NCBI RefSeq assembly: GCF_032854445.1
Contig: NC_088299.1
Coordinates: forward strand, 19,151,608 to 19,215,607
Length of the DNA stretch: 64,000 bases
Source: Liolophura sinensis
Lineage: Eukaryota > Mollusca > Polyplacophora > Chitonida > Chitonidae
Reading direction: 5' to 3'
In this document: in pieces, positions 26,701 to 62,257 of the stretch
Numbering within the stretch: position 1 is the stretch's first letter
Layout: every line of letters starts with the position of its first letter
Made by a program: the position numbers and the translations under genes
The notes under the pieces: generated by a model
What the model saw: the letters and a program-made list of their open reading frames with translations, nothing else
Told to the model about the DNA's origin: nothing
Databases searched by the model: none

Positions 26701-29700
26701 TCATCCACTGCCACATAACATTCATCCACTACCATATAACATTTATCCACTGCCACATAACATGCATCCACTGCCACACAACATCCATCCACTGCCACAT
26801 AACATCCATCCACTGCCACATAACGTCCATCCACTGCCACATAACATTCATCCACTGCCACATAACATCCATCCACTGCCTCATAACGGTCATCCACTGC
26901 CACATAACGTCCATCCACTGCCACATAGCATTCCTCCACTGCCACATAACATCCATCCACTGCCACATAACATCCATCCACTGCCTCATAACGGTCATCA
27001 ACTGCTACATAACATTTATTCACTGCCACATAACATTTATCCACTGCCACATAACATTTATCCACTGCCACATAACGTCCATCCACTGCCACATAACATC
27101 CATCCACTGCCACATAACATTCATCCACTGCCTCATAACGGTCATCAACTGCCACATAACATTTATCCACTGCCACATAACATTCATCCACTGTCACATA
27201 ACATCTATCCACTGCCACATAACATCCATCCACTGCCACATAACATTCATCCACTGCCACATAACATTCATCCGCTGCCACACAACATCCATCCACTGCC
27301 ACATAACATTCATCCACATAACATCCATCCACTGCCACATAACATTCATCCGCTGCCACATAACATTCATCCACTGCCACATAACATTCATCCACATAAC
27401 ATCCATCCACTGCCACATAACATTCATCCACTGCCACATAACATTTATCCACTGCCACATAACATCCATCCGCTGCCACATAACATCCATCCACTGCCAC
27501 ATAACATCCATCCACTTCCACATAATATGCATCCACTGCCAAATAATGTCCATCCACTGCCTCATAACGGTCATCAGCTGCCACATAGCATTCATCCACT
27601 TCCACATAACATTCATTCGCTTCCACATAACGTCTATCCACTGCCACATAACATTCATCCGCTGCCAAATAACATCCATCCACTTCCACATAACATCCAC
27701 TCATTTCAACTGTTGTGTGTTCATCACGTGAAAAAGGTTGTGTGTTTTCATGATTGTGACAGTTAAAACGCCATGATGTGTGTCTTAATATCTATCTTTT
27801 TTGGTTTGAACATATTACAGCTATTGCAGACAAGTCCTCCTTTATTTGGTAAACCATCCTCTGAAATATTGCAGTTTTTACTTTGTACATGTACCTATCA
27901 TGTTGATGGTATAGTACGGAGTTTGCTGTGAAAGTATGTTCTGGGTCTTTAGTTTCAGTGAGGACAGCGGCACGGATCAGACCCCACCTGTGGATGGTGA
28001 GGAGGCCCTGCAGGAGAGGGGACAGCACCGGACACGCCTACCTTGTAAGCGGGGCAAATGTTTTGACTCTGAAACAGCTTCAAAGAGGCTACCACATTCA
28101 TCCTCTCCACTTTGCAAATGGGGTGCTTCTGAAACAGTAGGTAGGATGTCTTCACAAATGGCACCTGGCCCATCCTGCTCATCTCAAGAGGCTTGTAGAG
28201 ATAGGTTAAGTGGTGGCTGTGACAGTGTTTTAATGTCGACTGCCCAGGGTGAACATCAGCTGCCAGCAAGCTCGAGTGTTGAACATGGGTACACTGATAC
28301 TGACATGTGCACTAGACAGGACAGGCTCCATCAGGACTCCAGGAAAAATGACAGACTTTTGGGCGGGCACGCTCAGTCAGTCACTGCCAAGGGAACTTCA
28401 GTTACAAAGACTTCAAACACTTGGTGTGGTGTTCCACTTAGCCCAGTGAGAGGTTTAGTTGCAGATGAAATAGTCAGTGAGGAGAGCTTGTGGAGAAGGG
28501 GAGATAACTATGGGAGGACTACAATGGACATGTGCTCAGATGGTCACTTTACTGAACATACTTCATCAGGCAGGAGACAGAGGTGAGGTTTTACACGTGT
28601 GTGAAGCTCACATCTAACCAAAGAACAACAACTACATGATATCGGGAATTCAGGGAGTGAATTGTTATTAAATGAATAAATATGATAGTCTGGTACCAGG
28701 TGATGGGCTTTGAATATCCTTCAGGTAATCTGGTTTCCTCCGCCCGTAAGACTGACTCCCATCTTGTAAGGATTTATGAAAAGTACATTCAGTTGGAGAA
28801 TAATCATGGAAAATGTCCATTATTTCAAGTAACACTACAGAAATAAATAAAGCAATATTTTTTCATTCTTGGAAGTTGCGGCCACTTTACTCCCTTGCAG
28901 GTGTGATGCCCATTATGCATATTTGTTTCATATTTCACGAATTTTCACAAATTTCACAAAAATGAAGCATTGACCAATGCTAAAATCTCAAAACAGTCCC
29001 TAGTCATGTGTCTTCAATGATTTCTGCTATTATTTAAATTTCACTCTCTTTTTAACAGTTCAGCCAACAGGCCCCGTTTACATGAAGTGCACTTAGCTAA
29101 GTAAACCCTTAACTGCCATGACAGCATATGTATATAGAGACATGAGGCACACTTAGCTAGGTAAACCCTTAACTACCATGACAGTATATGTACATAGAGA
29201 CATGAAGCGCACTTAGCTAGGTAAACCCTTAACTGCCATGACAGTATTTGTGCATAAAGACATAAAGCGCACTTAGCTAGGTAAACCTTTAACTACCATG
29301 ACAGTATATGTACATAGAGACATGAGGCGCACTTAGCTAAGAAAACCTTTAACTACCATGACAGCATGTGTACATAGAGACATGAGGCACCCTTAGCTAA
29401 GTAAAGCCTTGACTACCATGACAGCATGTGTACATAGAGACATGAGGCACACGTAGCTAGATAAACCCTTAACTACCATGACAGCATGTGTACATAGAGA
29501 CATGAGGCACACTTAGCTAGGTAAACCCTTAACTACCATGACAGTATATGTACATAGAGACATGAAGCGCACTTAGCTAGGTAAACCCTTAACTACCATG
29601 ACAGTATATGTACATAGAGACATGAAGCGCACTTAGCTAAGTAAACCCTTAACTGCCATGACAGTATATGTACATAGAGACATGAGGCGCACTTAGCTAA

Positions 29701-32700
29701 GTAAACCCTTAACTACCATGACAGCATGTGTACATAGAGACATGAGGCACCCTTAGCTAAGTAAAGCCTTGACTACCATGACAGCATGTGTACATAGAGA
29801 CATGAGGCACACGTAGCTAGATAAACCCTTAACTACCATGACAGCATGTGTACATAGAGACATGATTCGCACTTAGCTAGGTAAACCCTTAACTACCATG
29901 ACAGCATGTGTACATAGAGACATGATTCGCACTTAGCTAGGTAAACCCTTAACTACCATGACAGTATATGTGCATAGAGACATGAAGCGCACTTAGCTAG
30001 GTAAACCCTTAACTACCATGACAGTATATATACATAGAGACATGAAGCGCACTTAGCTATGTAAACCCTTAACTACCATGACAGCATGTGTACATAGAGA
30101 CATGAAGCACACTTAGCTAGGTAAACCCTTAACTACCATGACAGTATATGTACATAGGGACATGAAGCGCACTTAGCTATGTAAACCCTTAACTACCATG
30201 ACAGTATATGTACATAGAGACATGATTCGCACTTAGCTAGGTAAACCCTTAACTACCATGACAGCATGTGTACATAGAGACATGAAGCGCACTTAGCTAT
30301 GTAAACCCTTAACTACCATGACAGTATATGTACATAGAGACATGAAGCGCACTTAGCTAGGTAAACCCTTAACTACCATGACAGTATATATACATAGAGA
30401 CATGAGGCGCACTTAGCTAAGAAAACCTTTAACTACCATGACAGCATGTGTACATAGAGACATGAAGCACACTTAGCTAGGTAAAGCCTTGACTACCATG
30501 ACAGCATGTGTACATAGAGACATGATTCGCACTTAGCTAGGTAAACCCTTAACTACCATGACAGCATGTGTACATAGAGACATGAGGCACACTTAGCTAG
30601 GTAAACCCTTAACTACCATGACAGTATATGTACATAGAGACATGAAGCGCACTTAGCTAGGTAAACCCTTAACTACCATGACAGTATATGTACATAGAGA
30701 CATGAAGCGCACTTAGCTAAGTAAACCCTTAACTACCATGACAGTATATGTACATAGAGACATGAGGCGCACTTAGCTAAGTAAACCCTTAACTACCATG
30801 ACAGCATGTGTACATAGAGACATGAGGCACCCTTAGCTAAGTAAAGCCTTGACTACCATGACAGCATGTGTACATAGAGACATGAGGCACACGTAGCTAG
30901 ATAAACCCTTAACTACCATGACAGCATGTGTACATAGAGACATGATTCGCACTTAGCTAGGTAAACCCTTAACTACCATGACAGCATGTGTACATAGAGA
31001 CATGATTCGCACTTAGCTAGGTAAACCCTTAACTACCATGACAGTATATGTACATAGAGACATGAAGCGCACTTAGCTAGGTAAACCCTTAACTACCATG
31101 ACAGTATATATACATAGAGACATGAAGCGCACTTAGCTATGTAAACCCTTAACTACCATGACAGCATGTGTACATAAAGACATGAAGCACACTTAGCTAG
31201 GTAAACCCTTAACTACCATGACAGTATATGTACATAGAGACATGAAGCGCACTTAGCTAGGTAAACCCTTAACTACCATGACAGTATATGTACATAGAGA
31301 CATGAAGCGCACTTAGCTATGTAAACCCTTAACTACCATGACAGTATATGTACATAGAGACATGATTCGCACTTAGCTAGGTAAACCCTTAACTACCATG
31401 ACAGCATGTGTACATAGAGACATGATTCGCACTTAGCTAGGTAAACCCTTAACTACCATGACAGTATATGTACATAGAGACATGAAGCGCACTTAGCTAG
31501 GTAAACCCTTAACTACCATGACAGTATATATACATAGAGACATGAAGCGCACTTAGCTATGTAAACCCTTAACTACCATGACAGCATGTGTACATAGAGA
31601 CATGAAGCACACTTAGCTAGGTAAACCCTTAACTACCATGACAGTATATGTACATAGGGACATGAAGCGCACTTAGCTATGTAAACCCTTAACTACCATG
31701 ACAGCATGTGTACATAGAGACATGAGGCACACGTAGCTAGATAAACCCTTAACTACCATGACAGCATGTGTACATAGAGACATGATTCGCACTTAGCTAC
31801 GTAAACCCTTAACTACCATGGCAGTATATGTACATAGAGACATGAAGCGCGCTTAGCTAGGTAAACCCTTAACTACCATGACAGTATATATACATAGAGA
31901 CATGAAGCGCACTTAGCTAGGTAAACCCTTAACTACCATGACAGCATGTGTACATAGAGACATGAGGTGCACTTAGCTAGGTAAACCCTCAACTACCATG
32001 ACAGCATGTGTACATATAGACATGAAGCGCACTTAGCTAGGTAAACCCTTAACTACCATGACAGTATATATACATAGAGACATGAAGTGCACTTAGCTAG
32101 ATAAACCCTTAACTACCATGACAGTATATGTACATAGAGACATGAAGCGCACTTAACTAGGTAAACCCTTAACTACCATGACAGTATACATGTATGTACA
32201 TGGAGACGTGAAGGGCTCTTTATCTGAGCTCTACTTAATACTTTTAAGGTAGGCTTCATGCTCTTGTACGGGTGCCTTCCATCAGTTAGTAGACCCAACC
32301 TTCTGATATTCATGAACGACATCTAAGACTCAGACTACTTGAGAGCACCCAAGCCCGGGTTTTATAGACCCGCTTTCATACCGTCATATATGTAGTGATC
32401 AACCTACTTCCGTAACGGTTAGTTGTACAGTGTTCACAAGTCAAGAATTCTTGAGTACATATACAAAGTTGGGACACCAATCAAATAAATAGACAAAATA
32501 TTGGTAAATTCTGTGGACTGGGGAATTTTGAATCAGAACTCTTTATGGCTAAAGTTAAAGTCCTATTGTGTCGTGTGACTTGTAAAGAATGTGAGGTAAG
32601 TATTTACTATAACGTGAGCGTCTGAAAAACATTTCACTACAAAATGAGTTATTTAGAGTATACAAGCAGTGAAGAAAATTGATAAGCTGAGTGTTCGTCA

Positions 32701-35700
32701 ACTTCAAGTTTCTGTATGAAAGAGGTGTCATTTGTGCTCCTGGAACATGGTGAGATAATTACTGTCAGCAAAGATTGCCTAACATTTTTCACAGGTGGAG
32801 TGATACCGTAGGGACTGTTTTTACCTTCAGCGACAGAAAAAGTGCAAATTCAAGACTGCCTTATTGCGTCAAAATATGTTAAAAGTGTTGGAGTGCATAC
32901 TTGTATTTGAAGGTGGAGGCAGAGGTTCCACTTTTGTGATTTCTGTTCATAGTGAAGCCAAAAGGAAGTTTCCTGTCACGTCTGATTTGCTGAAAACCAC
33001 AGCTTCCTGTGGACAGGTAAGTGATATAACTACTGTATTTTAACATACATGTAACATAATCTATCTGACAGAACCTAGTAATAGCGTACCATTTTATTTT
33101 TGTGATGTTGCATAACCGAGATAGCTCAGTTCCGAGTATGAAGCAGATAAACATAGTGTGTGCACATGGAGAAAGTACAGATGCTGCCATGGGATAAATC
33201 TAAGCCTGTTAGCCCGGAGTTGTTTCTTTAACCCACAAACTTACTTATTTCTGAGGTCATGTGAACACTGTGTTGCCTTTTGGCTGTGTGCGCATGTGGT
33301 GCGAGTGACGCCACATCATCTTTCAGGTTTCTGTATAAACATGGCGTCTCACATGGCATAGTAAGCATTCCAGATTAAAAGTTAATTTATAGAGTTAGCA
33401 AGCACTTCATAGCCAAACAGCCGTAGCCATTTAGGTCCATTTCCCTCTTCTCTTCAAACTAATCAGTCGTATTATTTATCTATATTGCAACTTGCAACCT
33501 CAGTTCACATATCTCCACTCACTTCAGTCGTGATGGCATTGTTGAAAATGACACATTTATCTACAGAGGACAAACATCTTTATCAGGCTTTGAAAGCTTT
33601 GGTTTTGATTAACCTTGTGTGTGAGAACATTGCACTGTGTACCGAGATTAACCTTGTATGTGAGAACATTACACTGTGTACCATGATTAACCTTGTATGT
33701 GACAACATTGCACTGTGTAACGTGATTAACCTTGTATGTGACAACATTGTACTGTGTACCATGATTAACCTTGTATGTGACAACATTGTACTGTGTACCA
33801 TGATTAACCTTGTATGTGAGAACATTACACTGTGTACCGAGATTAACCTTGTATGTGAGAACATTGCACTGTGTACCGAGATTAACCTTGTATGTGAGAA
33901 CATTACACTGTGTACCATGATTAAACTTGTATGTGGAAACATTACACTGTGTACCATGATTAACCTTGTGCGTGAGAACATTGCACTGTGTACCATGATT
34001 AAACTTGTATGTGGAAACATTACACTGTGTAACGTGATTAACCTTGTATGTGACAACATTACACTGTGTACCGTGATTAACCTTGTATGTGAGAACATTA
34101 CACTGTGTACCATGATTAACCTTGTATGTGAGAACATTACACTGTGTACCGAGATTAACCTTGTATGTGACAACATTGCACTGTGTAACGTGATTAACCT
34201 TGTATGTGACAACATTGTACTGTGTACCATGATTAACCTTGTATGTGACAACATTACACTGTGTACCGTGATTAACCTTGTATGTGAGAACATTACACTG
34301 TGTACCATGATTAACCTTGTATGTGAGAACATTACACTGTGTACCGAGATTAACCTTGTATGTGACAACATTGCACTGTGTAACGTGATTAACCTTGTAT
34401 GTGACAACATTGTACTGTGTACCATGATTAACCTTGTATGTGACAACATTACACTGTGTACCGTGATTAACCTTGTATGTGAGAACATTACACTGTGTAC
34501 CATGATTAAACTTGTATGTGGAAACATTACACTGTGTACCATGATTAACCTTGTGCGTGAGAACATTGCACTGTGTACCATGATTAACCTTGTATGTGAG
34601 AACATTACACTGTGTACCATGATTAACCTTGTATGTGAGAACATTACACTGTGTACCATGATTAAACTTGTATGTGGAAACATTACACTGTGTACCATGA
34701 TTAACCTTGTGCGTGAGAACATTGCACTGTGTACCGTGATTAACCTTGTATGTGAGAACATTACACTGTGTACCATGATTAACCTTGTATGTGAGAACAT
34801 TACACTGTGTACCATGATTAACCTTGTATGTGAGAACATTGCACTGTGTACCATGATTAACCTTGTATGTCTTAAAAACTTAAAGTGATGCTGCAATGAT
34901 GAGGTGAGCAATGATTGTCGATGGGGTGGGTGACAAACATCACTGCATCACTTCTCACTGCCATAACTTCATAAGTTCAGCGTGGTATGCAGCGTGGTAT
35001 TCAGTCAGGTTTTGGTCACTATTACATGTACATTCCCCTATGAGTACACATTGGGTTTTCTCTCTGTTCATAGGCTTGTGTAAAGTGTGTGTCTCCAGTA
35101 AAACCCCGAGAAGAGCCCCAGAAGTCATGGCATGAGGATAGTTCATCAGGTGTGTGTTGATTTGTGGTTTCCTTCAGGCTCTGCACAGTTTTCTTACACT
35201 TGCAACAGAAAGTATGTCAAGAACCTGGCATAGGGCTGTGGTTTCCTTCTGGCTCTGCACAGTTTCCCTGCACTTGCAACAGAAAGCATGTCAAGAACCT
35301 GGCATATGGCTGTGGTTTCCTTCAGGCTCTGCACAGTTTTCTTACACTTGCAATAGAAAGCATGTCAAGAACATGGCAGAGGGCTGTGGTTTCCTTCAGA
35401 CTCTGCACAGTTTTCTTACACTTGCAACGGCAGGCTTGTCAAGCACCTGGCAGAGGACTGTGGTTTCCTTTGGTCTCTGCTCAGTTTCCTTGCACTTGAA
35501 GGAGAAGGCTTGGCAGGAACCTGGCAGAAGGCAGTGGTTTCCTTCACTTGTATACCTTACTCTCATCATATAATTTAAGTCTTACTGAATAGGGCTTTCA
35601 GCCCAATGAATTAGATAAATTATGATATTTCAGTGTACTGAAAAGTGAGCAGAAAGAGCACTATATCGTGGCTTTATATAATAGATGTTTTGCTCCAGTG

Positions 35701-38700
35701 TTCTTTCTCTAAAGAAAGATGAAGCGACCTGGGATTAGTGGCAATTAGTTGGTCTGTCTGTCTTCTACCTGCTATGTCTTTGTGCAGGGCTTTTGGGGTC
35801 ACCAAGGCCCCACAATAGGGTGACCCACTTCATCAACCACCACCTTTCACCTGAGAAGATCTAAAGTTTTGTGTAATTTACTACCCTAATGGCTGTCTGT
35901 CCTGCTTCATCACCCACCACCCTTAACCTGAGAAGCTCTAAGGTTTTGTATAATGTACTACCCCAATGGCTCTCTGTTCCACTTCATTACCCACCATCCT
36001 TCACCTGAGAAGCTCTAAGGTTTTGTGTAATTAACTACCCTAATGGCTCTCCGTCCCACTTCATCACCCACCATCCATCACCCCAGAAGCTCTAAGCTTT
36101 TGTATAATGTACTACCCTAATGGCTCTCCGTCCCACTTCATCACCCACGATCCTTCACCTGATAAGCTCTAAGGTTTTGTGTAATTAACTACCCTAATGG
36201 CTCTCCGTCCCACTTTATCACCCACGATCCTTCACCTGATAAGCTCTAAGGTTTTGTGTAATTAACTACCCTAATGGCTCTCCGTCCCACTTCATCACCC
36301 ACCATCCATCACCCGAGAAGCTCTAAGGTTTTGTGTAATGTACTACCCTAATGGATCTCCTTACCACTTCATCACCCACCATCCTTCACCCAAGAAGCCC
36401 TAAGGTTTTGTGTAATGTACTACCCTAATGGCTGTCCGTCCCACTTCATCACCCACCATCCTTCACCCGAGAAGCTCTAAGGTTTTGTGTAATGTACTAC
36501 CCTAATGGCTCTCCGTCCCACTTCATCACCCACCATCCATCACCCGAGAAGCTCTAAGGTTTTGTATAATGTACTACCCTAATGGATCTCCTTACCACTT
36601 CATCATCCACCATCCTTCACCCGAGAAGCTCTAAGGTTTTGTGTAATGTACTACCCTAATGGCTCTCCGTCCCACTTCATCACCCACCATCCTTCACCTG
36701 ATAAGCTCTAAGGTTTTGTATAATGTACTACCCTAATGGATCTCCTTACCACTTCATCACCCAAAATCCTTCACCTGATAAGCTCTAAGGTTTTGTGTAA
36801 TGTACTACCCTAATGGCTCTCCGTCCCACTTCATCACCCACCATCCTTCACCCGAGAAGCTCTAAGGTTTTGTGTAATGTACTACCCTAATGGCTCTCCG
36901 TCCCACTTCATCACCCACCATCCATCACCCGAGAAGCTCTAAGGTTTTGTATAATGTACTACCCTAATGGATCTCCTTACCACTTCATCACCCACCATCC
37001 TTCACCCGAGAAGCTCTAAGGTTTTGTGTAATGTACTACCCTAATGGCTCTCCGTCCCACTTCATCACCCACCATCCTTCACCTGATAAGCTCTAAGGTT
37101 TTGTGTAATTAACTACCCTAATGGCTCTCCGTCCCACTTTATCACCCAAAATCCTTCACCTGATAAGCTCTAAGGTTTTGTGTAATGTACTGCCCTAATG
37201 GCTCTCCCTCCCACTTCATCACCCACCATCCTTCACCTGAGAAGGTCTAAGGTTTTGTGTAATGTACTACCCTAATGGCACTCCGTCCCACTTCATCACC
37301 CACCATCCATCACCCGAGAAGCTCTAAGCTTTTGTATAATGTACTACCCTAAGGGCTCTACGTCCCACTACATCACCCACCATCCATCAACTGAGAAGCT
37401 CTAAGGTTTTGTATGATGTACTACCCTAATGGCTCTCTGTCCCACTTCATCACCCAACATCCATCACCCGAGAAGCTCTAAGGTTTTGTATGATGTACTA
37501 CCCTAATGGCTCTCTGTCCCACTTCATCATCCACCATCCATCACCCGAGAAGCTCTAAGGTTTTGTGTAATGTACTGCCCTAATGACTCTCCGTCCCACT
37601 TCATCACCCACCATCCTTCACCTGAGAAGCTCTAAAGTTTTGTATAATGTACTACCCTAATGGCTCCGTCCCACTTCATCACCCAAAATCCATCACCAGA
37701 GAAGCTATAAGGTTTTGTGTAATGTACTACCCTAATGGCTCTCCCTCCCACTTCATCACCCACCATCCTTCACCTGAGAAGGTCTAAGGTTTTGTGTAAT
37801 GTACTACCCTAATGGCACTCCGTCCCACTTCATCACCCACCATCCATCACCTGAGAAGCTCTAAGGTTTTGTGTAATGTACTACCCTAATGACTCTCCAT
37901 CCCACTTTATCACTCACCATCCATCACCTGATAAGCTCTAAGGTTTTGTATAATGTACTGCCCTAATGGCTCTCCATCCCACTTCATCACTCACCATCCA
38001 TCACCGGAAAAGCTCTAAGGTTTTGTATAATGTACTACCCTAATGGCTCTCCTTACCACTTCATCACCCACCATCCTTCACCTGAGAAGCTCTAAGCTTT
38101 TGTGTAATGTACTACCCTAATGGCTCTCCGTCCCACTTCATAACCCACCATCCTTCACCTGATAAGCTCTAAGGTTTTGTGTAATGTACTACCCTAATGG
38201 CTCTCCGTCCCACTTCATCACCCACCATCCTTCACCTGAGAAGCTCTAAAGTTTTGTATAATGTACTACCCTAATTGCTCTCCTTACCACTTCATCACCG
38301 ACCATCCTTCACCTGAGAAGCTCTAAGGTTTTGTGTAATTAACTACCCTAATGGCTCTCCGTCCCACTTCATCACCCACCATCCTTCACCTGAGAAGGTC
38401 TAAGGTTTTGTGTAATGTACTACCCTAATGGCCCTCCGTCCCACTTCATCACCCACCATCCTTCACCTGATAAGTTCTAAGGTTTTGTGTAATTAACTAC
38501 CCTAATGGCTCTCCGTCCCACTTCATCACCCACCATCCTTCACCTGATAAGCTCTAAGGTTTTGTATAATGTACTACCCTAATGGCTCTCCGTCCCACTT
38601 CATCACCCACCATCCTTCACCCGAGAAGCTCTAAGGTTTTGTATAATGTACTACCCTAATGGCTCCGTCCCACTTCATCACCCAAAATCCATCACCAGAG

Positions 38701-46185: not shown

Positions 46186-46418
46186 GAAGTTTATAGCCTG
46201 GCCAGTGAAAATGTCTTATACAAGGTTTAACTAATGATATAATATGTTGTGAGTGACAGATGTAACTTATTTTACATGCGTTCAGTTTACCAAGTGTGGA
46301 ATATTTCCTAGCACTCCACTTGCATCTATGGATGATTGCTGTTTCATATTAAAGCCACAATTTCTCAACTTCTATTTTAAGTGGTAATGAATATCCTGGA
46401 AAAGCCATGCTATTCCAG

Positions 46419-46660
46419 GTTCTACCTGAAGACTGGTGTGAAGGTACATTCTATTCCAGGTTCTACCTGAAGACTGGTGTGAAGGTACATTCTATTCCAG
46501 GTTCTACCTGAAGACTGGTGTGAAGGTACATTCTATTCCAGGTTCTACCTGAAGACTGGTGTGAAGGTACATTCTATTCCAGGTTCTACCTGAAGACTGG
46601 TGTGAAGGTACATTCTATTCCAGGTTCTACCTGAAGACTGGTGTGAAGGTACATGTAATG
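46419..46660. repeat. 41-bp direct repeat, six copies
   Basis: Each copy reads gttctacctgaagactggtg-tgaaggtacattctattccag. ctattccag resembles an acceptor and tgaag|gtacat a donor, framing a 26-nt block. Copies are almost identical. Confidence 0.93.
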
Positions 46661-47970: not shown

Positions 47971-48299
47971 ACACGACAGCACCAGAGGCAGACACCATCA
48001 CAATAAGTGTTAACAAAACGAGTGCTGCAAAAAAGTGCAGCCCCACCATATTGACATACCATCTACACACTACCGGCCTTTCAACTACAACCCAGACTTC
48101 CAAGGCAACAATGTGGATGATGGTATCAACAAAATGGTGTGCAAACTTAAGACCCAGAAGGTCAGAGTAATATATTTTTGGTTTCTTCAGGAACACTCTG
48201 ATCTTGTGTCACAGAAACCCAACTCACAGGTTAAGCAGAGCTCTCACAGGCTGAGCAGAGCTCTCACTGGCTATTCAATTGCTGTGTGCATTTAACTGG

Positions 48300-49200: not shown

Positions 49201-49204
49201 TGGA

Positions 49205-49997: not shown

Positions 49998-51033
49998 CTG
50001 TTATAAACCATAATTTTCTTATGCAAGAATTGTTAGGAATAAATGCTTGTCAAGAAAAAGCAATGCATACAAAGTTGTCTTGCCTGACACAAGGAGCTGG
50101 AATAGTAAGAGGTCATCATTTCAAAACACTGTTATCAAAGTACCCCGTCCTTTACTATTTTCATACTATGCTGATGAAAGCTGGTTGCTTTCTGCACATA
50201 GGGTTTATATATGGTTTATATGTGGAGTATTAAACACCTACAAATGGTTATAACAGCGGTGAATTTCACAGCACATGAGAGTCTACACACGTTATCACTA
50301 AGCCGCTTAAATATCACAAACTATCATTTAAATCATTATCATATCGTCCTTACACACATGAAATAAACTTGTTACAACAACTCTGCAGTTCTTTAAACAT
50401 CTGACCTGAAGATGCTAAAAAAATTCCATACAAATTTCAAGGAATTAAACCTGCCAAAATAAAACATGCACATATACAGTAAGCTACTTATGCAACAGTT
50501 CAGATAAATCAATTTCAACCTTTACAGAAGAGGTAAATTTCAATGAATTCTGACTCATATTTTAAGACTTAGGATAATAACAATTACACGTTCACTGAAC
50601 TGTTTACACCTTCATGTACCCTGTACAGCACATTATTTAATCTCTATAAAGAAAATATACAAGCAGACTTTGTATGATTCAACTTGAAAGTGCACGATCT
50701 TGTCTGATACAGCTTCACAAAATGTGCCACCTTGTCTGACACAGCTTAACAAACATCATCTCTTCAGGGGAGACTACTCTGCTTGGAAATGCGTGCACAA
50801 GACGGTCATATACATGGGGATTTCCCTCTGTTTTACATGTCCATACAGAGCTTACAGGCTAGGGCCTCCATGTGCTTGTGTTCTCCCCTGAACAGATGAA
50901 TGGATTTATGTACATGTACAGCCTCAACATGGTGGAAATATGAATTATGGCAAAGGGTGCTGGTCCCTGACTGCACGAGGTATCCCTCTAAGGCAGATAG
51001 AATCAGCTGGCTGTTTCCCTGTTGGTCCCAGTC
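49998..51033. other. CTSA 3' flank
   Basis: Presumed 3' UTR and flank of CTSA (minus strand). On the minus strand an ATTAAA variant signal falls at about 50636; no canonical AATAAA is evident close to the stop. Confidence 0.4.
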
Positions 51034-51117
51034 TCAGTATGGGATGTTCTGTATGAAGTTTGTAAAGAGTTTGAGGGCTGGTGCAGGTCTGTCTGTGGGC
51101 ACCATGTGACCAGATCC
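51034..51117 (-). CDS. CTSA: CTSA exon j, catalytic His and stop
   Basis: 27 codons plus [14 protein letters not shown], with the catalytic histidine, to the C-terminus NIPY. The acceptor is tgtttggcag. A 1.9-kb intron with two arrays precedes it. Confidence 0.95.
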   Translation of the reverse strand, partial: GSGHMVPTDRPAPALKLFTNFIQNIPY

Positions 51118-54100
51118 CTGCCAAACACAACAATGTCACACTTTAATAGAATGGCCCACTTAAACTTTCACACTTGAAATAAATATTTACTGACTTTAAG
51201 GCCATTCTCGAAATTTTTCACTTTATACGACAGTGGTCAGCCTCATGACTCATGAGTGGAGGAAACCAGAGGGCACGGCATACACCACTGACCTGTGGCT
51301 AGCTGACAGTGGTTAGTCTCATGAGTGGAGGAAACCAGAGGGCATGGCATACACCACTGACCTGTGGCTAGCTGACAGTGGTCAGTCTTATGAGTGGAGG
51401 AAACCAGAGGGCACGTCATACACCACTGACCTGTGGCTAGCTGATAGTGGTCAGTCTTATAAGTGGAGGAAACCAGAGGGCCCGGTGTACACCACTGACC
51501 TGTGGCTCACTGACAGTGGTCAGTCTCATGAGTGGAGGAAACCAGAGGGCACGTCATACACCACTAACCTGTGGCTAGCTGACAGTGGTCAGTTTTATGA
51601 GTGGAGGAAACCAGAGGGCCCGGCATACACCACTGACCTGTGGCTAGTTGACAGTGGTCAGTCTCATGAGTGAAAGAAACCACGGGGCCCGGCGTACACC
51701 ACTGACCTGTGGCTAGCTGACAGTGGTTAGTCTCATTAGTGCAGGAAACCAGAGGGCCTGGTGTACACCACTGACCTGTGGCTCACTGACAGTGGTCAGT
51801 CTCATGAGTGGAGGAAACCAGAGGGCCCGGCGTACACCACTGACCTGTGGCTAGCTGACAGCGGTGGGTCTCATGAGTGGTGGAAATCAGAGGGCCCGAT
51901 GTACACCACTGACCTGTGGCTAGCTGACAGTGGTTAGTCTCATGGGTGGAGGAAACCAGAGGGCCCGGTGTACACCACTGACCTGTGGCTAGCTCACAGT
52001 GGTCAGTCTCATGAGTGGAGGAAACCAGAGGTCCCGGTGTACACCACTGACCTGTGGCTAGCTCACAGTGGTCAGTCTCATGAGTGGAGGAAACCAGAGG
52101 TCCCGGTGTACACCACTGACCTGTGGCTAGCTCACAGTGGTCAGTCTCATGAGTGGAGGAAACCAGAGGGCCCGGTGTACACCACTGACCTGTGGCTAGC
52201 TCACAGTGGTCAGTCTCATGAGTGGAGGAAACCAGAGGGCCCGGTGTACACCACTGACCTGTGGCTAGCTCACAGTGGTCAGTCTCAAGAGTGGAGGAAA
52301 CCAGAGGTCCCGGTGTACACCACTGACCTGTGGCTAGCTACTGATTAATTTCCCACAGGTGACGTTATAATATAATATGTAATATAATATATAATGGTGG
52401 AAGACAAAGTGGTGACGAGAGCACCGGTCATCAACTGTTGAAATAATTGTCACCAATCAAAGTGGGAGAATATATAAACTCCCCGCACCTCATGTTTGCT
52501 GCTGACAGATAGGTAGTCATTCTCAAATATTACATAAAAATCTAAATTAACAAAGTGATTAAGCCTATCACTCACGACACTGGTATATCCCTCATGACAA
52601 TGGTATATCCCTCATGACAGTGGTATATCCCTCATGACAGTGGTATATCCCTCATGACAGTGGTATATCACCCATGACAGTGGTATATCCCTCATGACAG
52701 TGGTATATCCCTCATGACAGTGATATATCACCCATGACAGTGGTATATCCCTCACGACAGTGGTATATCCCTCATGACAGTGGTGTATCCCTCATGACAG
52801 TGGTACGTCACCCATGAAAGCGGTATAAATCTTCATATGATTATAAGGTTTCCTTTCCTGAACTTAATAAAAAATCTTGTGATGAAATATTGAGAGTCTC
52901 CATGCTACATGGACAATTTTCTTTTTTTTCTTTTAATCAGAAAGCCTTAGTTGGGTGTCCTTAAGGAAATCTTGAACCTCAATGGTTCTAGTGTTTAGTT
53001 CTTGAACATGTTTAATGTATGACTCACCCTGACAGTGACGAATGTGAGTCGCTCATACTGCTTGACGAATCCGGCCACCTGCTTGGTTCCATCAGCAGCT
53101 ATGTAATACCAAGCCTTACGCTCCTTAGGTTTCTGTAATACAGTCACAGATAAGCAATGAATACAGAACCTGCTTGGTTCCATCAACAGCCATGTAATAC
53201 CAGCCCGAGGCCTCTGTGGCTCAGTTGGTTAGCGTGTTAGCGCAGTGTGATGACCCAGCAGTCGCTCACCAATGCGGTCGCTGTGTTTTCAAGTCCAGCC
53301 CATGCTGGCTTCCTCTCCGGCCGTACCTGGGAAGGTCTTTCAGCAACCTGCGGATGGTCTTGGGTTTCCCCCGGGCTTTGCCTGGTTTCCGCCCAAAACA
53401 ATACTGGCCTTCGTCGTATAAGTGAAATATTCTTGAGTACAGCGTAAAACACCAATCAAATAAATAAATACCAGGCCTTACGCTCCTTAGCCTTCTGTAA
53501 TACAGTCACAGATAAGCAATGACTACAGAGTGTTTAAGTTATTCCTACTTAAGCATTTACATGAATATTTGTCATGGTTGGAATAAAACCTTGAGGGAAA
53601 TTGACAAGAGCACAGATTTCACCAGTTACATGTGGCCATTTGCCAACTATCATACGGTCATTGATGCTCAAGCAGCAAGACACCAGACATGACACCTCAA
53701 CTTGTCATAAAATACTGATGCTGGGCCAACCAGGCAATGGTTTAATGAAGCGCACGTTGATAAACCCTGAACTATCATGTCAACATATGTTGTAGAAATA
53801 TAAACGTCACTTAATTAAGGGTTACTTAACCCTAACTACAGTAAATCACGTAGAGTTTAGCCAAAAATTTCTGGCTGTTTAGCTGATTTGAGTTGCTGCC
53901 AGAGATGACAGGGGAGAGTGATCCGCCCCCAGCTGTGCACTTCATATGCCACATGGAGCAACTCCCCAGGCATAGAATGAGAAACGAGTGTTTATACACC
54001 CACTAGTCCATCTAGACCATCAGTGAAACGTTGTTGGTTGACTTGTTCTCAAGGTTGGGTCGGTCAGTTGTCAAAAAATTTTGACAACATAATTTGTGTA

Positions 54101-57100
54101 AATGATCTAAAATTTCCCCCCTCTGCTACTTTCTCACAGTATGAGTGGGGGGGGGGGGGGGGGGGCATGACGTATGAGATATTATCCCCCTCACCTCACA
54201 TTAGACTTCATGAAGGCTTAGGTTGCTAATCCTCACCACACGTATGCGGGTCAACAACAGTACTTGACAGTGAGGCTTTAAGATTTCCCAACCAGTCACA
54301 CCTTGTTTTTTCTCATGAATTTTACTCATGAAAGTGAATAAAGTATCAAGTGACAATCACATAAAAGTACATTCCAAAAATCTCCACACTAAACAGCCAT
54401 TCTGGCAGAAAATATGTAGAGATGGTACTCGCAACATTTCAACTGCTCAGTGAAGTGTTTTGACTCGACTCATTCAGCACACCATACCTGAGACGTGCAT
54501 TCTGACGCTAGCTTTGTAGCGATTCCACCAGAGCTAACAGCTGCATGTTCACTGAAGCGTGAGCGTGTTTATTGCCACAGGTATGTACAATCCTGTGAAC
54601 ACACTGCTCAGATCCCCACTGCCCCCCAGCTGTGTCCAATTACCAGAAATCACCACTAGACACAAGGAATCATGGGATACACTTTTTAAAATCATCGGCT
54701 AAACTCTACGTGATTTACAGTACCCTTCAGGAAACCAGTCCCAGTCCTGTTTCCTAGCTCTAACCTCACTGTGCTGTGTGCCAAGCAAGGTAGCGTCTAT
54801 CATTTCTCTTTTCACGAGACTAATAACTCTAAACTCTGTTTTTACACTGCACACCCACTGACAACATGGACAGATGGGATGGGGTGGGGGAAAGATGAAG
54901 GGGCACACAGACACCTGTGTGGGTGGGCAGAGAACGGGGTAATTACCGGCTGATTGAGAGAATCCACGAACCACTCATCTCCCAGGAAGTTACACGCCAT
55001 GTCAACATCTCCATTGTACACCAAAACTCGTTTCTGCAAACAGAAGTCATGTTGGATGTGTTCATCTGGTAATTTCCCTCAAACATGTGTAGGTACTGAC
55101 ATTATCTATTGTGTGAGATTAGCATATGTAGTGCACTTGAACTTTTACAACATCTTAAGTCCTGTCGGAGATTATAACCATGCTATCTGAGATTATAACC
55201 ATGCTATCTGAGATTATAACCATGCTATCTGAGATTATAACCATGCTATCTGAGATTATAACCATACTATCTGAGATTATAACCATGCTATCTGAGATTA
55301 TAACCATGCTATCTGAGATTATAACCATGCTATCTGAGATTATAACCATACTATCTGAGATTATAACCATGCTATCTGAGATTATAACCATACATATCCA
55401 GGAGTAGATAAAAAACAAAACATGCTGCTGTCACACTAATCAACAAATGCATACAAGTACATGTGATGGACAAATGGAGATCTGTGATGTGTTAAGATGT
55501 TAGTCTGGTATAAGCTGAAGCATACAGTAAACAAACACAGACAGGAACTCAATGCCACAGTGCTTGGTGCACGTTTGCATGTTACTGTCCTCTTTGAAAA
55601 AAGCCTTTGTGTAAGTATTTCTTGGGCTCTGATTTTGTTGTTTATAGACATTGTAGAAATAGTAATTAGAATCTGTCTGTAGACATAGTTATTTTTCTTG
55701 TTTTTTTTCATGTACAATGAAAATGAGCATATTTTGCTAATATGCCAAAAATGTCTTTTGTTAGAGAAATGCATTTAAAGTTGCTTGTAATTTTGAAATC
55801 CACATACAACAATATATTTAATGTATTTGACTTTACTTTAATACATGTAGTTGGGTGAACAAAGATCTTGGCCACTTTAATCAGACGTTTACAGAGAGAT
55901 ACAGAAGTGTACATTGATCTGTGGGTAGAGACCAGTAATGTTACATGTAACATACCCCTGCATCAAGCACTTTGTGGTAAAACTGCTTCGTGGTAGAGTA
56001 AAGGTTCTTGTAGTGTGAGCCAACTTCAGTGCTGCAAAAATGAAAGAAAGTACTTGAGCCCACTGAAATGCTATAAACATGATACAAATTAGTTATGCCC
56101 AATTCAGAGCGACAAATAGATACAAAGTATTTAGTTCTGCAAATTATGTCAAGTGTTTTGAGTCCACTTCAGTTTTATGGAAAGAAAACCACCATGGTGA
56201 CTTGGGTAAACCACCGACTTAAGGTAAGTCACTCAATAACTTTACCAGGTGTGACTTACTAACTTTAGGTGAGTAACTCAATAACTTTACCAGGTGTGAC
56301 TTACTAACTTTAGATGAGTAACTTTAGGTGAGTAACTCAATAACTTCACCAGGTGTGACTTACAGATATGCGCAGCAGATTGGTAAAAGAAAAGAAGTCT
56401 AACAAATCTAAGATGACAAACACTATAAACAGACACAAGAGCATCACTGCGTCACCATAACCCACAAACAGTGACAGGGACAGAACACACAGGCCATGTC
56501 TGAGGCCGGGTTTTATACATCTACATCTGCAGGCAGACTCTACATACAACAAACTGTACTTGGAACGTACAAAGTACAAACATTTTCGCAGTTCTGGCAC
56601 TGTGGTTTACCTGCATGGCGTCCAGGGGAGAGAACTGGGGGAGATATGGAGGGCCTGCCGTACGGCCTCCTGCTGCAGATACATCACAGTATTCGTGGCA
56701 TTTATACACGGGGGTGTCAGCATCACCTTGCTGGCCTGGTATTTCTCCAACATCTGAAACAGCACAGTCATTCAAAATTACATTTACAGGTGTGTGGTTG
56801 ATGTAATTAAGCAGTGTTATAAGTGCTTCTCTAAATCCTCCAGCTTTTTTTCATACTCTGATCGTAAAATAATATAGTGGCAGTCAGGTTATGGTCAGAA
56901 TTTTTAAAGCAACACCAACTGAATCTTTATTTATTTTTTGTTCACCTTCTAATTTCACTGTTAAGGTAAGAAGGCATGGTCAAGATGAAGTAGTTCACTT
57001 TGACTTTCTATCAACAGATAAATTAACCTTGATTCATGGATACAATATTTAATTGAGCATTAAGTCTGCCACTATATGTACATACAGAAAGAATGATTCA

Positions 57101-60100
57101 AGACACGGTTATCCCAGAAGAATATGTCAAAAATTCTATAAAGTTTTGAAAGCCTAGAAGATGAAGTTCAGCGCTGGGGATATGGCACTGACGGACAATT
57201 CACTCCGCCATCTTGTAGAAGCCCTTATGAACTTGGTCAATCACTACCGCTGAAAACGTCACAGAATAACTGGCTGTAACGTAAAAAAACTATTAGCTCT
57301 CGATTGTTACTGTGGTTTCTTGTAATGGATAGAATGATATCAATGCAACAAACTGGATTTGCAGTTAGCCTAAGTGTTAACCTGATGCATTTTGGAACAC
57401 ACATTTATGATCAGGGAACTGAGAACGGCTGCCAGTGTCACAATGCGTAGGATACTGCAGTAACTGGTCAAGGTGAGCTGGCAAGAAAACCGCCTCAGAA
57501 GAGTCTTTGCTTGAAGAAAATAGTGTGACTTTGCATTATTTTTCCTTACCAAGGTCAGATTTATTTAGAAAATATCTTCCCAAAATCTGAATGAAAGGGT
57601 CTGTTATCAATCAGAAAGTCCTGCTACATTTGGTAAATTCCCTGAAGTCGGTGCAGCCAGCTAGGCCTAATGCTTACACCCATACAGGACAAGGACAAGC
57701 AGGACCGCTAAAACACGACGTTTGTGTCCACGAACACGGCCCTAACCAAGTACCAAACTGAAAGAAACATCAGCCCTTTGAACACAGAACAAAGCTAGGA
57801 CTTTGGTTGGGTATCAGGCGTTTGTTTGTGTTTTCTTATCATGACATCATTAAATTTGATGTCGTCACTCTAGATAGCTATAACATGGCAAGTGGTGTCA
57901 CACATGAGTGGCCAGGTACTGACGATTGTTTGCTATTTATTTTGTTGATAAGCAATGTAGAATTTTTTACATATTTTTAGAACATTTTTGGCATACTACT
58001 TTTTAATTAATTCAGGTTAGTGGTTTACTTTATGCTCACTTCATTACTATCCACAATACTATATAATAAGGACATACCTGTACATGTATTTAGTGAAAAA
58101 TAAACTTTCACTGCCAAAATATCCCAGACAAACTTTACATCAGACAGATATAACCTAGGTGTAGACCATGCATACTTGTAGGTTAGGAGGGTTGCAGTAC
58201 CTTCTTCTGGGCTATGACTCTAGGGTTTGCGCTCATTGGCCAGCCGAACTCGGAGAACTCGAATGTTTGCAGCTGCTCATTATAGCGCAGGCCTTGTCCG
58301 TTCACACACTCGCCGTACAGGTTGTAGATATTCAGTCCTGAGCCGCTGATAGCGCTCTGAGCCCGCAAAATCTGAACAGAAAAGTATGAGAAGTATTGCC
58401 AGTGTAAATTATACCCGCAGTCAGCCATAGATACAAACACTTACTGGAATATACACGAAAATGTCAGCCACAGACACAAACACATGCACTGAGATGTACA
58501 CGAAAACGTCAGCCACAGTCACAAACACATGCACTGAGATGTACACGAAAACATCAGCCACAGACACAAACACATGCACTGAGATGTACACGAAAACGTC
58601 AGCCACAGACACAAACACATGTACTGAGATATACAGGAAAATGCATATAGAATGCTACTGTCTTTTTGGAATACATATCCTCTTCAACACAAACTATTAT
58701 TCTGTGAAGTAACTCCTGCTTAAATTAAGAAGGAAGGAGACATCATAACAGCTTGTCCACAATTTTGCTATCAAAATGTACTCTACAGATTTGCTGTCTA
58801 TTACTCAATGTTTGTCTACTGTTTAAAGATCTGTCAAAAACCTACTGCGTGTCTGCAGCTGTCCTGTCCAACTGCTCCCACAAAGTTACACCTGGTAGCA
58901 TTTCCTCCACAGCAGTTTCCCAGCATATTATTCCAGACCCTATCACAAACAAACAGGAGCATAAGCAATACAACAATATCAACTAAATCTGACTGGATAT
59001 TAAACTTACCAAACAAATACGCATCAAAAAAACTTGATAGAGGAACTGTGCCCAGGTAAAGTGTGTATGCTCTATTTACACATCTTTAGCAAAGAGATTC
59101 TCAAATCAATCAACTCTTCACTGAGTTTACTTCCTATCAGAAGCTGTAGTGTCAAAGATAACAACATTATATTTGCAAGAACAACTTGCGAGTAACAGAA
59201 TAAATATCAGAGACTATGAAGCCCATGGTACAACTTACACATCCCCCATAAGTCCATGGTACAACTTACACATCCCCTATAAGTCCATGGCACAACTTAC
59301 ACATCCCCTATAAGTCCATGGTACAACTTACACATCCCCTATAAGTCCATAGTACAACTTACACATCCCCTATAAGCCCATGGTACAACTTACACATCCC
59401 TTATAAGTCCATGGTACAACTTACACATCCCCCATAAATTCATGGTACAACTTACACATCCCCTATAAGTCCATGGTACAACTTACACATCCCCCATAAA
59501 TTCATGGTACAACTTACACATCCCCTATAAGTCCATGGTAGTATCCAAAGTACAGGAGAGAGTTCTCATTCATGACTGAATCCGACAGTCCATTTCCCAC
59601 ACCAAATCCCTGAAACGTGGAAATTACTGTGAATGACTCCAGAACGTACATGTGTGGGTGGAAAAACATGGCAATCATTTTCACAGTTACAGGATAACTG
59701 TGAGCTAAATGTCAGAATTACTCCTTTGTCTTGTTAATAAATAAAACATTGCCAGACAAAATTGAACCCGTGACAAAGTTTCTGTGTCACAGCTCCTGTA
59801 TTGCGCTAACGTTTGGGGCCTAAAGATGCACCTTCAGAAGCATGTAAAACTTTAAAATTACACTTTTGATGCAAACACTAAAGTTTCTCTGGCAAGAAAT
59901 TAATCAAAGTTCACAAAAAGCTCTCAAGTGTCACAAGAACTAAGAGGGTGGATGAATCAATCAGAATCAAGCCAAATGTGTCAATTGAAGAATTCTAAAC
60001 TTAAGGTGAAACACAGTGTTTTTACCCACAATGAGCCAATGTAAAGATGATTCATTTAATCCAGTATCAGACTGACATACATGTACATGTCAAGGAGCAT

Positions 60101-62257
60101 GACTTTGTGTGCATGAATGAATGAATGAATGAAACATGTTATTCATAGAGGGTACATGTACAGCGTAAACTCAATATATGTCTAAGTATGTCATATATGT
60201 CTACCCGCCCAAAAATTTCTTTCAAAACCTCAGATCAGCTTACAATAAGCCTGCAAGGAAGTTAAATTGTCAGTTAAGACTGCAAAGCAATTACATGTAC
60301 CAGAGGTCAGCAGAACTCAAATGTTCCCCTCAATTACATGTACCAGAGGTCAGCAGAACCCAAATGCTCCCCTCAATTACATGTACCAGAGTTCAGCAGA
60401 ACTCAAATGTTCCCCTCAATTACATGTACCAGAGGTCAGCAGAACTCTAATGTTCCCCTCAATTACATGTACCAGAGGTCAGCAGAATTTAAATGTTCCC
60501 CTAATTACATGTACCAGAGGTCAGCAGAACTCAAATGTTCCCCTCAATTACATGTACCAGAGGTCAGCAGAACTCAAATGTTCCCCTCAATTACATGTAC
60601 CAGAGGTCAGCAGAACTCAAATGTTCCCCTCAATTACATGTACCAGAGGTCAGCAGAATTTAAATGTTCCCCTCAATTACATGTACCAGAGGTCAGCAGA
60701 ATTCAAATGTTCCCCTCAATTACATGTACCAGAGGTCAGCAGAACTCAAATGTTCCCCTCAATTACATGTACCAGAGGTCAGCAGAACTCAAATGTTCCC
60801 CTCAATTACATGTACCAGTGGTCAGCAGAACTTAAATGTTCCCCTCAATTACATGTACCAGAGGTCAGCAGAACTCAAATGTTCCCCTCAATTACATGTA
60901 CCAGAGGTCAGCAGAACTCAAATGTTCACCTCAATTACATGTACCAGAGGTCACCAGAACTCAAATGTTCACCTCAAATAGAAAGGGCTTCCACTACGCA
61001 TTACATAACCACAAATATCACACATCAGAAATTTGATGTTAGGCTAAGTCAAGAACATTCAGAGGTAAAATTTTCTGGTCCATTTTGGGTTTGCAGACTG
61101 GAGGTTTCTTGTAATATATTAGACTTACTTGGAAGTTGAAATCGGTATCGTTAACAACCAGAGAGGACAGAGTGGGCACATAAATGCCTCCGTAACTCTC
61201 CCCTGTGATGAAAAATTCATTAGATTTGTACTCAGGGTATTTCTGGAAGAAATCCTTCAAAGCCAAATAGTTGTCATGAGCCACCTGTAAGGACAAAGAA
61301 AAAAAATCTGAAGCCTTCCTCATTTATTTACTGAGCCACAAAATCAAATGTTTTAATGTCTGTACCAAATCACTACCCAATATCTAACCTTTTTATCACA
61401 TTCTATCATAATACCTACCACTATTTACTTTGTGTGCTATCCATATCTTACCATATCATCATCTACACCTGACATTTACACTCCACCTTACCCACCATCA
61501 TCTACACCTCACATTTAACATCCTATCTTACCCTATCATCATCTACACCTGACATTTACACTCTACCTTACCCACCATCATCTACACCTGACATTTACAC
61601 CTCATTTTACCATAACATCAGCTACACCTAACATTTACATCTCATCTTACCATATCATCATCTACACCTGACACTTACACCCCATCTTACCACATCATCA
61701 TCCCCACCTGACATTTAAATCCCATCTTACCCTATCATCATCTACATCTGACATTAAAATCCCTTCTTACCATATCATCATCTCCACCTGACATTTACAT
61801 CCCTTCTTACCATATCATCATCTACACCTGACATTTACATCCCATCATACCATATCATCATCTCCACCTGACATTTACATCCTTTCTTACCATATCATCA
61901 TCTACACCTGACATTTACATCCCTTCTTACCATATCATCATCTACACCTGACATTTACATCCCATCTTACCATATCATCATCTACACCAGACATTTACAC
62001 CCCCATCTTACCATATCATCATCTACACCTGACATTTTTATCCCATCTTACCATATCATCTTCCAGGCCTGACATTTACATCCGATCTTACCATATCATC
62101 ATCTACACCTGACATTTTTATCCCACTTTACCATATCATCATATACATCTGACATTTACCCCCATCTTACCATATCATCATCAAAGGCGTAATCCTTGTC
62201 ATCCGCATAGGAGTAGCCTACACCTGCTGGAGCCTCCAGGTACAACACGTTGGCAAT
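51034..62257 (-). CDS. CTSA: Lysosomal protective protein / cathepsin A (serine carboxypeptidase), 3' ten exons
   Basis: Peptidase family S10 lysosomal carboxypeptidase. In vertebrates it also stabilises beta-galactosidase and neuraminidase. Ten exons (62171-62257, 61129-61284, 59518-59609, 58846-58939, 58201-58371, 56611-56753, 55956-56031, 54947-55033, 53028-53132, 51034-51117) total 1095 nt with all phases matching: 364 residues plus stop. This is about the length of the human protein from the equivalent residue onward. The full catalytic triad is present: Ser in GESYGG (61 kb), Asp in NGDVDMAC (54.9 kb), His in GSGHMVP (51.1 kb). The Cys-rich [10 protein letters not shown] segment and the C-terminal NIPY end also match. 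The signal peptide and about 115 N-terminal residues lie beyond the right edge. No frameshift was seen. Introns carry at least eight tandem arrays, one MITE and one SINE. Confidence 0.96.
51230..52345. repeat. 69-bp array derived from a SINE end
   Basis: About 16 copies of gtacaccactgacctgtggc-tagctcacagtggtcagtct-catgagtggaggaaaccaga-gggcccggt. At the left end, 51205-51260 (ttcactttatacgacagtgg-tcagcctcatg, then gaggaaacc) matches the 3' part of the minus-strand SINE, from which the unit appears to be built. Confidence 0.93.
52565..52832. repeat. 20-bp tandem array
   Basis: About 13 copies of ccctcatgacagtggtatat in the last CTSA intron. Confidence 0.93.
53028..53132 (-). CDS. CTSA: CTSA exon i
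   Basis: 35 codons in phase 0-0, with [14 protein letters not shown] before the His exon. The donor is AGG|gtgagt. Its 5' part and acceptor are duplicated immediately upstream on the minus strand (53169-53535), and that copy is broken by a SINE. Confidence 0.95.
53078..53535 (-). repeat. 91-bp duplication of CTSA exon i start plus acceptor, second copy split by SINE
   Basis: 53078-53168 contains the first 55 nt of exon i, its acceptor and intron flank. The same sequence recurs at 53169-53203 and continues at 53467-53535, with a SINE in between. The copy has a few substitutions and no donor. Confidence 0.9.
53204..53466 (+). mobile_element. SINE, full length, with target-site duplication
   Basis: Head gaggcctctgtggctcagtt to tail aatcaaataaataa. 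Flanked by aataccag at 53196-53203 and 53467-53474. The insertion lies inside the duplicated CTSA exon copy. Confidence 0.95.
53839..54720. mobile_element. Tc1/mariner-like MITE with TIRs and TA duplication
   Basis: The left end cagtaaatcacgtagagttt-agcc and the right end ggctaaactctacgtgattt-acag are inverted copies with one mismatch in 24 bp. TA flanks both (53837-53838 and 54721-54722). The 882 bp hold no transposase frame. A run of 19 G lies at 54147-54165. In the CTSA intron between exons h and i. Confidence 0.75.
54947..55033 (-). CDS. CTSA: CTSA exon h, catalytic Asp
   Basis: 29 codons, nearly identical to the vertebrate protein: [11 protein letters not shown] followed by [11 protein letters not shown]. 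The Asp in DVDMAC position is the catalytic one by family alignment. The donor is CCG|gtaatt. Confidence 0.97.
55168..55395. repeat. 21-bp tandem array
   Basis: About 11 copies of gagattataaccatgctatc-t. Open on both strands because 21 is divisible by three; intronic in CTSA. Confidence 0.95.
55956..56031 (-). CDS. CTSA: CTSA exon g
   Basis: 76 nt, phase 2 in and 0 out: [20 protein letters not shown]. It precedes the Asp exon as in the family. The acceptor is tttttgcag and the donor GGG|gtatgt. Confidence 0.88.
56222..56362. repeat. About 50-bp repeat, three copies
   Basis: gtaactcaataactttacca-ggtgtgacttactaacttta with length variation. In the CTSA intron between exons f and g. Confidence 0.85.
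56611..56753 (-). CDS. CTSA: CTSA exon f
   Basis: 143 nt ending in phase 2. Contains PPCINATN, then VRQALHI, as in S10 carboxypeptidases. The donor is TGCAG|gtaaac. Confidence 0.92.
56815..58200. other. CTSA intron between exons e and f
   Basis: 1.4 kb without a recognisable element or exon. Confidence 0.5.
58201..58371 (-). CDS. CTSA: CTSA exon e
   Basis: 57 codons in phase 0-0, with [12 protein letters not shown] matching the conserved family segment. The rest of the exon (linker region) is divergent, as expected. The donor is AAG|gtactg. Confidence 0.92.
58440..58645. repeat. 45-bp tandem array, about 4.5 copies
   Basis: tcagccacagacacaaacac-atgcactgagatgtacacga-aaacg. Intronic, between CTSA exons d and e. 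Confidence 0.94.
58846..58939 (-). CDS. CTSA: CTSA exon d, Cys-rich
   Basis: 94 nt, phase 2 in and 0 out. It carries [12 protein letters not shown] with a potential N-glycosylation site (NAT), and ends in DSCRHA. The donor is GCA|gtaggt. Confidence 0.92.
59222..59550. repeat. 32-bp array of CTSA exon c end plus donor
   Basis: About ten copies of acttacacatcccctataag-tccatggtacaa. On the minus strand each reads CCATGGACTTATAGGGGATG-T|gtaagt, the exon c end and donor. The rightmost copy is the real exon end. Confidence 0.95.
59518..59609 (-). CDS. CTSA: CTSA exon c
   Basis: 92 nt ending in phase 2: [10 protein letters not shown]... YYHGLIGDV. The donor GGGGATGT|gtaagt is the one that keeps the alignment with the human sequence across the junction (HGL-x-G-x-x-x-W). 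Exon end plus donor are the first unit of a 32-bp array running into the intron. Confidence 0.93.
60113..60135. repeat. (GAAT)n microsatellite
   Basis: Five to six tgaa repeats in the CTSA intron. Confidence 0.85.
60290..60985. repeat. 43-bp tandem array
   Basis: About 16 copies of tcaattacatgtaccagagg-tcagcagaactcaaatgttc-ccc, in the CTSA intron between exons b and c. Confidence 0.96.
61129..61284 (-). CDS. CTSA: CTSA exon b, nucleophile elbow
   Basis: 52 codons in phase 0-0. Contains the G-E-S-Y-G-G nucleophile motif with the catalytic serine, after [16 protein letters not shown]. The donor is TTCCAA|gtaagt. Confidence 0.97.
61435..62185. repeat. 40-bp array of CTSA exon a end plus donor
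   Basis: About 18 copies of catatcatcatctacacctg-acatttacatcccatcttac. On the minus strand the unit reads GATGATGATATG|gtaaga, the exon a end with its donor. The rightmost copy is the real junction at 62171. Confidence 0.95.
62171..62257 (-). CDS. CTSA: CTSA exon a (first one in window)
   Basis: 29 codons in phase 0-0, from [17 protein letters not shown] to FDDDM. The donor is GATATG|gtaaga. The exon end and donor are copied about 18 times in the 40-bp array just downstream in the intron. The acceptor is aatgttacag. Confidence 0.95.

Follow-up and report, generated by a model that had tools for sequence, protein, structure and literature searches.

Mirage-type minisatellites at splice junctions of two neighbouring genes in the chiton Liolophura sinensis

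Two genes and the arrays at their splice junctions

The stretch of DNA analysed here, which we call the window, comprises 64,000 nucleotides (C5:19151608-19215607) of the 609-Mb assembly of Liolophura sinensis, a chiton and hence a marine mollusc (Mollusca: Polyplacophora). It lies approximately 264-328 kb from the end of a 19,479,325-base contig and, as an earlier note on this DNA had proposed, holds two neighbouring genes on opposite strands. A TINF2-like gene (LOC135465712 isoform X2) extends on the plus strand over 11 coding exons, from start codon to stop codon (14629..45037), and the minus strand carries the last 10 of the 13 coding exons of a gene for cathepsin A, or lysosomal protective protein (51034..62257), whose first three coding exons fall beyond position 64000 in an adjoining 10-kb stretch, L027. 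The exon models, in which all introns are GT-AG, reproduce two annotated Liolophura sinensis proteins letter for letter: P0121, annotated as LOC135465712 isoform X2, and P0001, annotated as lysosomal protective protein-like. Small mismatches at exon ends in the initial protein searches were gone from these final models. With a protein of Liolophura sinensis as the top match, an origin of this DNA from a lancelet was rejected. Cathepsin A is identified by Pfam PF00450 (E 1.2e-64) together with PDB matches to lysosomal protective protein, and the TINF2-like gene by PF14973, which is below the cut-off for one exon and also labels P0121. At two TINF2-like acceptors (27951-27959 and 44983-44987) a second AG lies 6 or 3 nt off, a possible source of isoform differences. 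Elsewhere in the window, open stretches at 4000-5500 and 10770-11060 look like pieces of LTR-retrotransposon polyproteins.

TRF finds all four arrays that had been reported earlier (29080-32188, 42748-43933, 59214-59540 and 61445-62182), and three of them, with units of 67, 31 and 40 bp, span junctions confirmed by the exact protein models. The 67-bp array (42748..43933, plus strand; 17.7 copies by TRF, 18 copies of the junction motif) has a unit composed of 37 nt of intron end, acceptor included, and 30 nt of coding exon 10 of the TINF2-like gene (43904..44038, plus strand). It crosses the acceptor at 43904, which belongs to the exon-proximal, last copy of the array, and AG is kept in 18/18 copies, the used one counted. 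The other two arrays are found at cathepsin A donors on the minus strand. At 59214..59540 (10.5 copies by TRF, 10 motif copies) the array is as reported, and only the unit length needs amending, from 32 bp to the 31 bp measured by TRF; this unit, consisting of 23 nt of exon end with the donor and 8 nt of intron, crosses the donor at 59518, the exon-proximal copy, of the exon at 59518..59609. The 40-bp unit of 61445..62182 (18.5 copies by TRF, 17 motif copies) combines 12 nt of exon end, donor and intron, and crosses the donor at 62171, again the exon-proximal copy, of the exon at 62171..62257. With the used copy counted, GT is kept in 10/10 copies of the former and 17/17 of the latter. Just outside the window, in L027, a 79-bp array with 15 motif copies crosses the acceptor of cathepsin A exon 2. 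In the annotated proteins it is the exon-proximal copy that is used at all four junctions. A separate 99% perfect 41-bp array is located at 46406-46654, 1.4 kb past the TINF2-like stop and outside annotated coding exons; its unit looks like an acceptor, 25 nt and a donor, and the array as such resembles a ladder of exons.

The two remaining cases described at this locus differ in kind. A 60-bp array (29080..32188, plus strand; 52 copies by TRF) is present where it had been placed, at 29.1 kb, but the exon whose junction it was said to span, a candidate 42-nt cassette exon at 29059..29100 on the plus strand in which the array begins, is absent from isoform X2. That isoform, the sole one compared, joins 28582 to 32953 and skips the segment. 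Bounded by AG and GT, in frame with its 42 nt and free of stops, 29059-29100 could, to judge by its sequence, be an in-frame cassette exon. At 53.1 kb, the 91-bp case has proved to be what was claimed, a single copying of the start and acceptor of a cathepsin A exon, as seen both in the sequence and in a second protein match. The 5' part and acceptor of the exon at 53028..53132 (minus strand) have been duplicated once into the intron, such that the acceptor 30-mer of this exon (53132-53028) has one local copy and a protein search matches cathepsin A residues 412-420 a second time at 53494-53468. The duplicate spans 53165..53512 on the minus strand, with approximate borders, and an insert, which we take for a tRNA-type SINE, divides it in two.

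Repeat background and recurrence in other genes

Tandem arrays are plentiful in this genome. There are 24 in the window, where they make up 42% of the sequence, and a set of 20 stretches of 10 kb, placed arbitrarily, has a mean coverage of 16% (median 11%) by arrays with a period of at least 10; periods below 10 were excluded and overlapping TRF rows merged.

To compare junctions with their surroundings, we scored a position as locally repeated if the 30-mer centred on it recurs within 1.5 kb at a match of at least 24/30. In the two window genes the repeated share rises from 1/44 at -30 in the exon through 5/44 at the junction to 22/44 at +300 in the intron; in the myosin genes described below it is 2/68 at -30, 4/70 at the junction and 8/58 at +300, the junction counts having been made with the donor borders of cathepsin A exons 2 and 3 off by one, an offset that was removed for the per-array counts below. 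Among positions within the same introns, and introns only, the corresponding figures are 3594/6129 and 672/3423. Counted base by base, repeats are rarer at junctions than in introns, and over the 44 window-gene and 70 myosin junctions coverage forms a ramp from exon to intron with no peak at the junction. A reversed-sequence control of the test returned 0/733 and 1/737 matches. The edges of repeats have an even density across the TINF2-like and cathepsin A genes, with 4 in 1759 bp of exon, 3 in 1644 bp of near intron and 16 in 6769 bp deeper, and are denser near junctions in the myosin genes (4 in 2927 bp, 3 in 2789 bp and 3 in 14261 bp, respectively), where one of the edges is a weak 24-nt match. 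Locally repeated positions amount to 64% of the sampled intronic positions in the TINF2-like gene and 36% in cathepsin A, versus 12% and 24% outside both genes; arrays may be denser within genes than outside.

Further genes were drawn from two sources. Nine stretches (L022-L026 and L028-L031) out of 81 listed myosin matches were chosen for dense neighbouring matches, eight of them at a point when none of their arrays was known, and L031 once arrays had come to light in the other eight. The first eight gave 41 neighbouring exon pairs, from which 35 introns were kept once five weak pairs and one uncalled pair were dropped; L031 contributed six introns out of six. All pairs used are adjacent in the profile. 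Repeated exon copies in L030 were reduced to one for intron calls, and myosin exon borders are throughout homology calls. The second source was a set of Pfam scans of 20 open reading frames from the arbitrarily placed stretches, which led to one multi-exon gene model, an aminopeptidase in L015 with five introns and three arrays (borders approximate, two donors unresolved). These stretches contain other genes as well, among them a pecanex exon in L021.

Junction-spanning arrays occur in 4/46 introns of these other genes. All four are in myosin genes, with none in the six L031 myosin introns or the five aminopeptidase introns. Together with the window and L027 this makes eight spanning arrays, five at donors and three at acceptors, with 9 to 43 motif copies in seven of them and five in the eighth. 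Junction-anchored arrays of this kind, known as mirages, are probably frequent in this genome.

Individual myosin loci have features of their own. The longest ladder that we encountered, with 43 motif copies including the used one, is at a myosin acceptor (L028:2146-3506). A myosin array on the reverse strand of L030 (oriented 7361-8043) has five repeats of a donor together with as much as 113 nt of its exon, and the open reading frame of the last copy is close to that of the first, making it possible raw material for new exons. Elsewhere, at L022:690-1890 (C1:26641500 onwards), one exon of a myosin gene that we take to be of the muscle type is present in three similar versions, an arrangement that mutually exclusive exons would be expected to show.

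Splice-site copies and the origin of the arrays

The position of the used site within the arrays might seem informative in itself. That the true site is always the exon-proximal one, as the earlier note held, is correct for the three confirmed window arrays, but we discarded the pattern as evidence. Where the protein is known, at four junctions, 56 other copies were tested (16, 9, 17 and 14, the last number including two exon-2 acceptor copies without AG), and splicing at any one of them would introduce an in-frame stop into the mRNA. Because every copy tested gives a stop, exon-proximal use is partly a necessity, and the other copies cannot simply replace the true site. This weighs against the suggestion that the additional splice sites are useful, whether as spares that buffer the true site or as a means of tuning alternative splicing, and have been kept by selection. 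What speaks for such a benefit is that GT or AG is kept in 131/135 copies of the eight arrays, used ones counted, and that the splice dinucleotides in unused copies vary in 2/16 columns. Compared with random neighbouring columns by permutation, they are a little less variable (P 0.10 for variable columns, P 0.02 for mean variability), which pure neutrality would not predict. Retention of GT and AG is nevertheless only weakly above that of the neighbouring columns, such that homogenisation suffices to produce it, and we regard a benefit as improbable. Anchoring of the units at a fixed register to the splice site could be ruled out, since the junction occupies no fixed place in the unit: in units of 31-140 bp, anywhere between 9 and 113 nt are exon, an overlap too variable for a unit tied to the splice site. 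In most arrays, moreover, the units are not identical. This variety, and the exact reconstruction of the annotated proteins from all other borders, run counter to an artefact of mis-assembly or wrong exon borders, for which the absence of the 29.1-kb exon from isoform X2 might be cited. Considering also that the available part of a genome paper describes a Liolophura assembly of equal size, with a scaffold as long as the window's contig, as PacBio HiFi (PMC11068029, where the species is named L. japonica), an artefact is hardly credible.

A more serious contender treats splice junctions as hotspots, at which founding duplications take place, and arrays start, more often than elsewhere. This was addressed per array, under a null that places the founding unit uniformly over the intron and its flanks. 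In the 22 introns of the window genes, 4 of 23 arrays span a junction where 0.95 are expected (P 0.016), a value that does not stem from an unbiased sample, given that the window was chosen for the feature. The 35 myosin introns give 4/10 against 0.55 (P 0.002), and pooled with the window 8/33 against 1.5. For the full 46 introns of other genes, with an 8-nt overlap, 4 of 13 arrays span a junction, compared with 0.59 or 0.93 expected depending on the unit (P 0.003 or 0.015), and three do so if 12 or 16 nt of exon are required (P 0.006-0.046); these numbers are small, the sample is partly post hoc, and the test was devised after the first matches were known. The per-array count does rule out that junction overlaps are a trivial outcome of 42% array coverage. 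The excess, alongside the denser myosin repeat edges near junctions, is what a hotspot would produce; its cause might be, for instance, breaks linked to transcription, a high GC content of exon ends or pausing of the polymerase. Set against this, all four cases outside cathepsin A and the TINF2-like gene come from myosin, per-base coverage has no junction peak, edge density is flat in the window genes, and the register of the unit varies. Base composition alone may account for part of the excess: in the 46-intron set the four spanning arrays have a GC content of 42-52%, versus 37% for introns, with the nine other arrays at 0 to 59%. On balance we find a hotspot rather unlikely, while noting that it is compatible with the steps of tolerance and growth outlined below. 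Of about the same probability is the broader prospect that junctions are true array hotspots in chitons, and perhaps in further animals rich in minisatellites, with several percent of introns carrying ladders of near-identical splice sites among which the spliceosome reliably chooses the exon-proximal one.

The reading that we consider probable is that the arrays are mirage-type minisatellites, in which a tandem duplication happened to include an exon border, was tolerated, and grew into the intron, its limit on the exon side being set by selection for an intact reading frame. We infer an origin by ordinary tandem duplication, where a short event (unit 31-140 bp) would have taken in an exon-intron border by chance. 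Such a duplication would be tolerated, as splicing at the exon-proximal site continues to connect the exon with its right partner. The array could then have expanded intronwards and become homogenised, as other minisatellites do in this genome rich in repeats, with its exon side held in place by selection on the reading frame. Exon definition, as understood from splicing in general, would choose the proximal site, and together with decay of mis-spliced mRNA it would render the extra sites nearly neutral. Of the two explanations that had been put forward for junction-anchored arrays, selective survival is supported, both by the exon-to-intron ramp and by the stops from 56/56 other copies, whereas junction-biased duplication has in its favour the small-sample excess.

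Mirages in lancelets and related repeats

The earlier note knew of no named mechanism for such arrays. The phenomenon does have a name, mirages, known from minisatellites of lancelets, and it is the mechanism that is called unclear in the source. As far as the available text of that work goes, mirages affect globin and Adh3 genes, involve both types of boundary and leave splicing regular (PMC3087553); another paper, likewise available in part, adds PGBD5 and cites troponin C (PMC3902484). The lancelet genes concerned are Adh3, troponin C, the globins BflGb6 and BflGb9, and PGBD5. The chiton arrays share several properties with them. A genuine exon-intron boundary lies within the repeat unit (in three window arrays, the adjoining one and, at homology-called borders, four in myosin), donors and acceptors are both affected, and many copies keep AG or GT. 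Regular splicing may hold for the chiton genes too: at four arrays the annotated proteins, which are gene models, fit the exon-proximal copy. Unlike in lancelets, the host is a mollusc and several junctions of one gene are affected, and copy numbers, at the values given above, are higher than the 3 and 6 units known in two BflGb6 haplotypes.

Among molluscs, the available text of an abalone study describes a 27-bp minisatellite in intron 3 of a TSSK1-like gene whose repeat number varies among individuals (PMC6905558); it is molluscan and intronic as here, and overlap with a splice site is not stated in that text. The accessible part of a cone-snail paper concerns intronic microsatellites rather than junction arrays (PMC3862624), and junction arrays are likewise no topic in what is accessible of two papers on chiton genomes. 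We found no report of mirage minisatellites for molluscs in the open-licence literature, and an earlier one elsewhere is possible. The mirage pattern, known from lancelets, is apparently new for molluscs.

With as many as 43 almost identical splice sites to a ladder, these arrays amount to natural experiments in spliceosomal choice between equal sites, and they bear in addition on the evolution of introns and exon ends. Their occurrence outside lancelets suggests that mirages may be common in minisatellite-rich animal genomes, and their recurrence in other genes makes a genome-wide test of junction bias feasible.

Comparable repeats are also documented in human. Genes in segmental duplications have internal tandem repeats at exon-intron boundaries that are able to alter splicing, according to the available part of the report (PMC2812944). 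Alternative splicing and new introns are described there, and neither is found in the two annotated chiton proteins, which show no new intron made from the arrays through a duplicated AG|GT. Another structural parallel is the 31-bp VNTR of human CBS, given in the accessible text as c.1444_1467+7(16_21), a unit of 24 nt of exon end and 7 nt of intron start present in 16-21 copies (PMC2630376). Its unit spans an exon-intron border just as those of the chiton do, at a single polymorphic locus.
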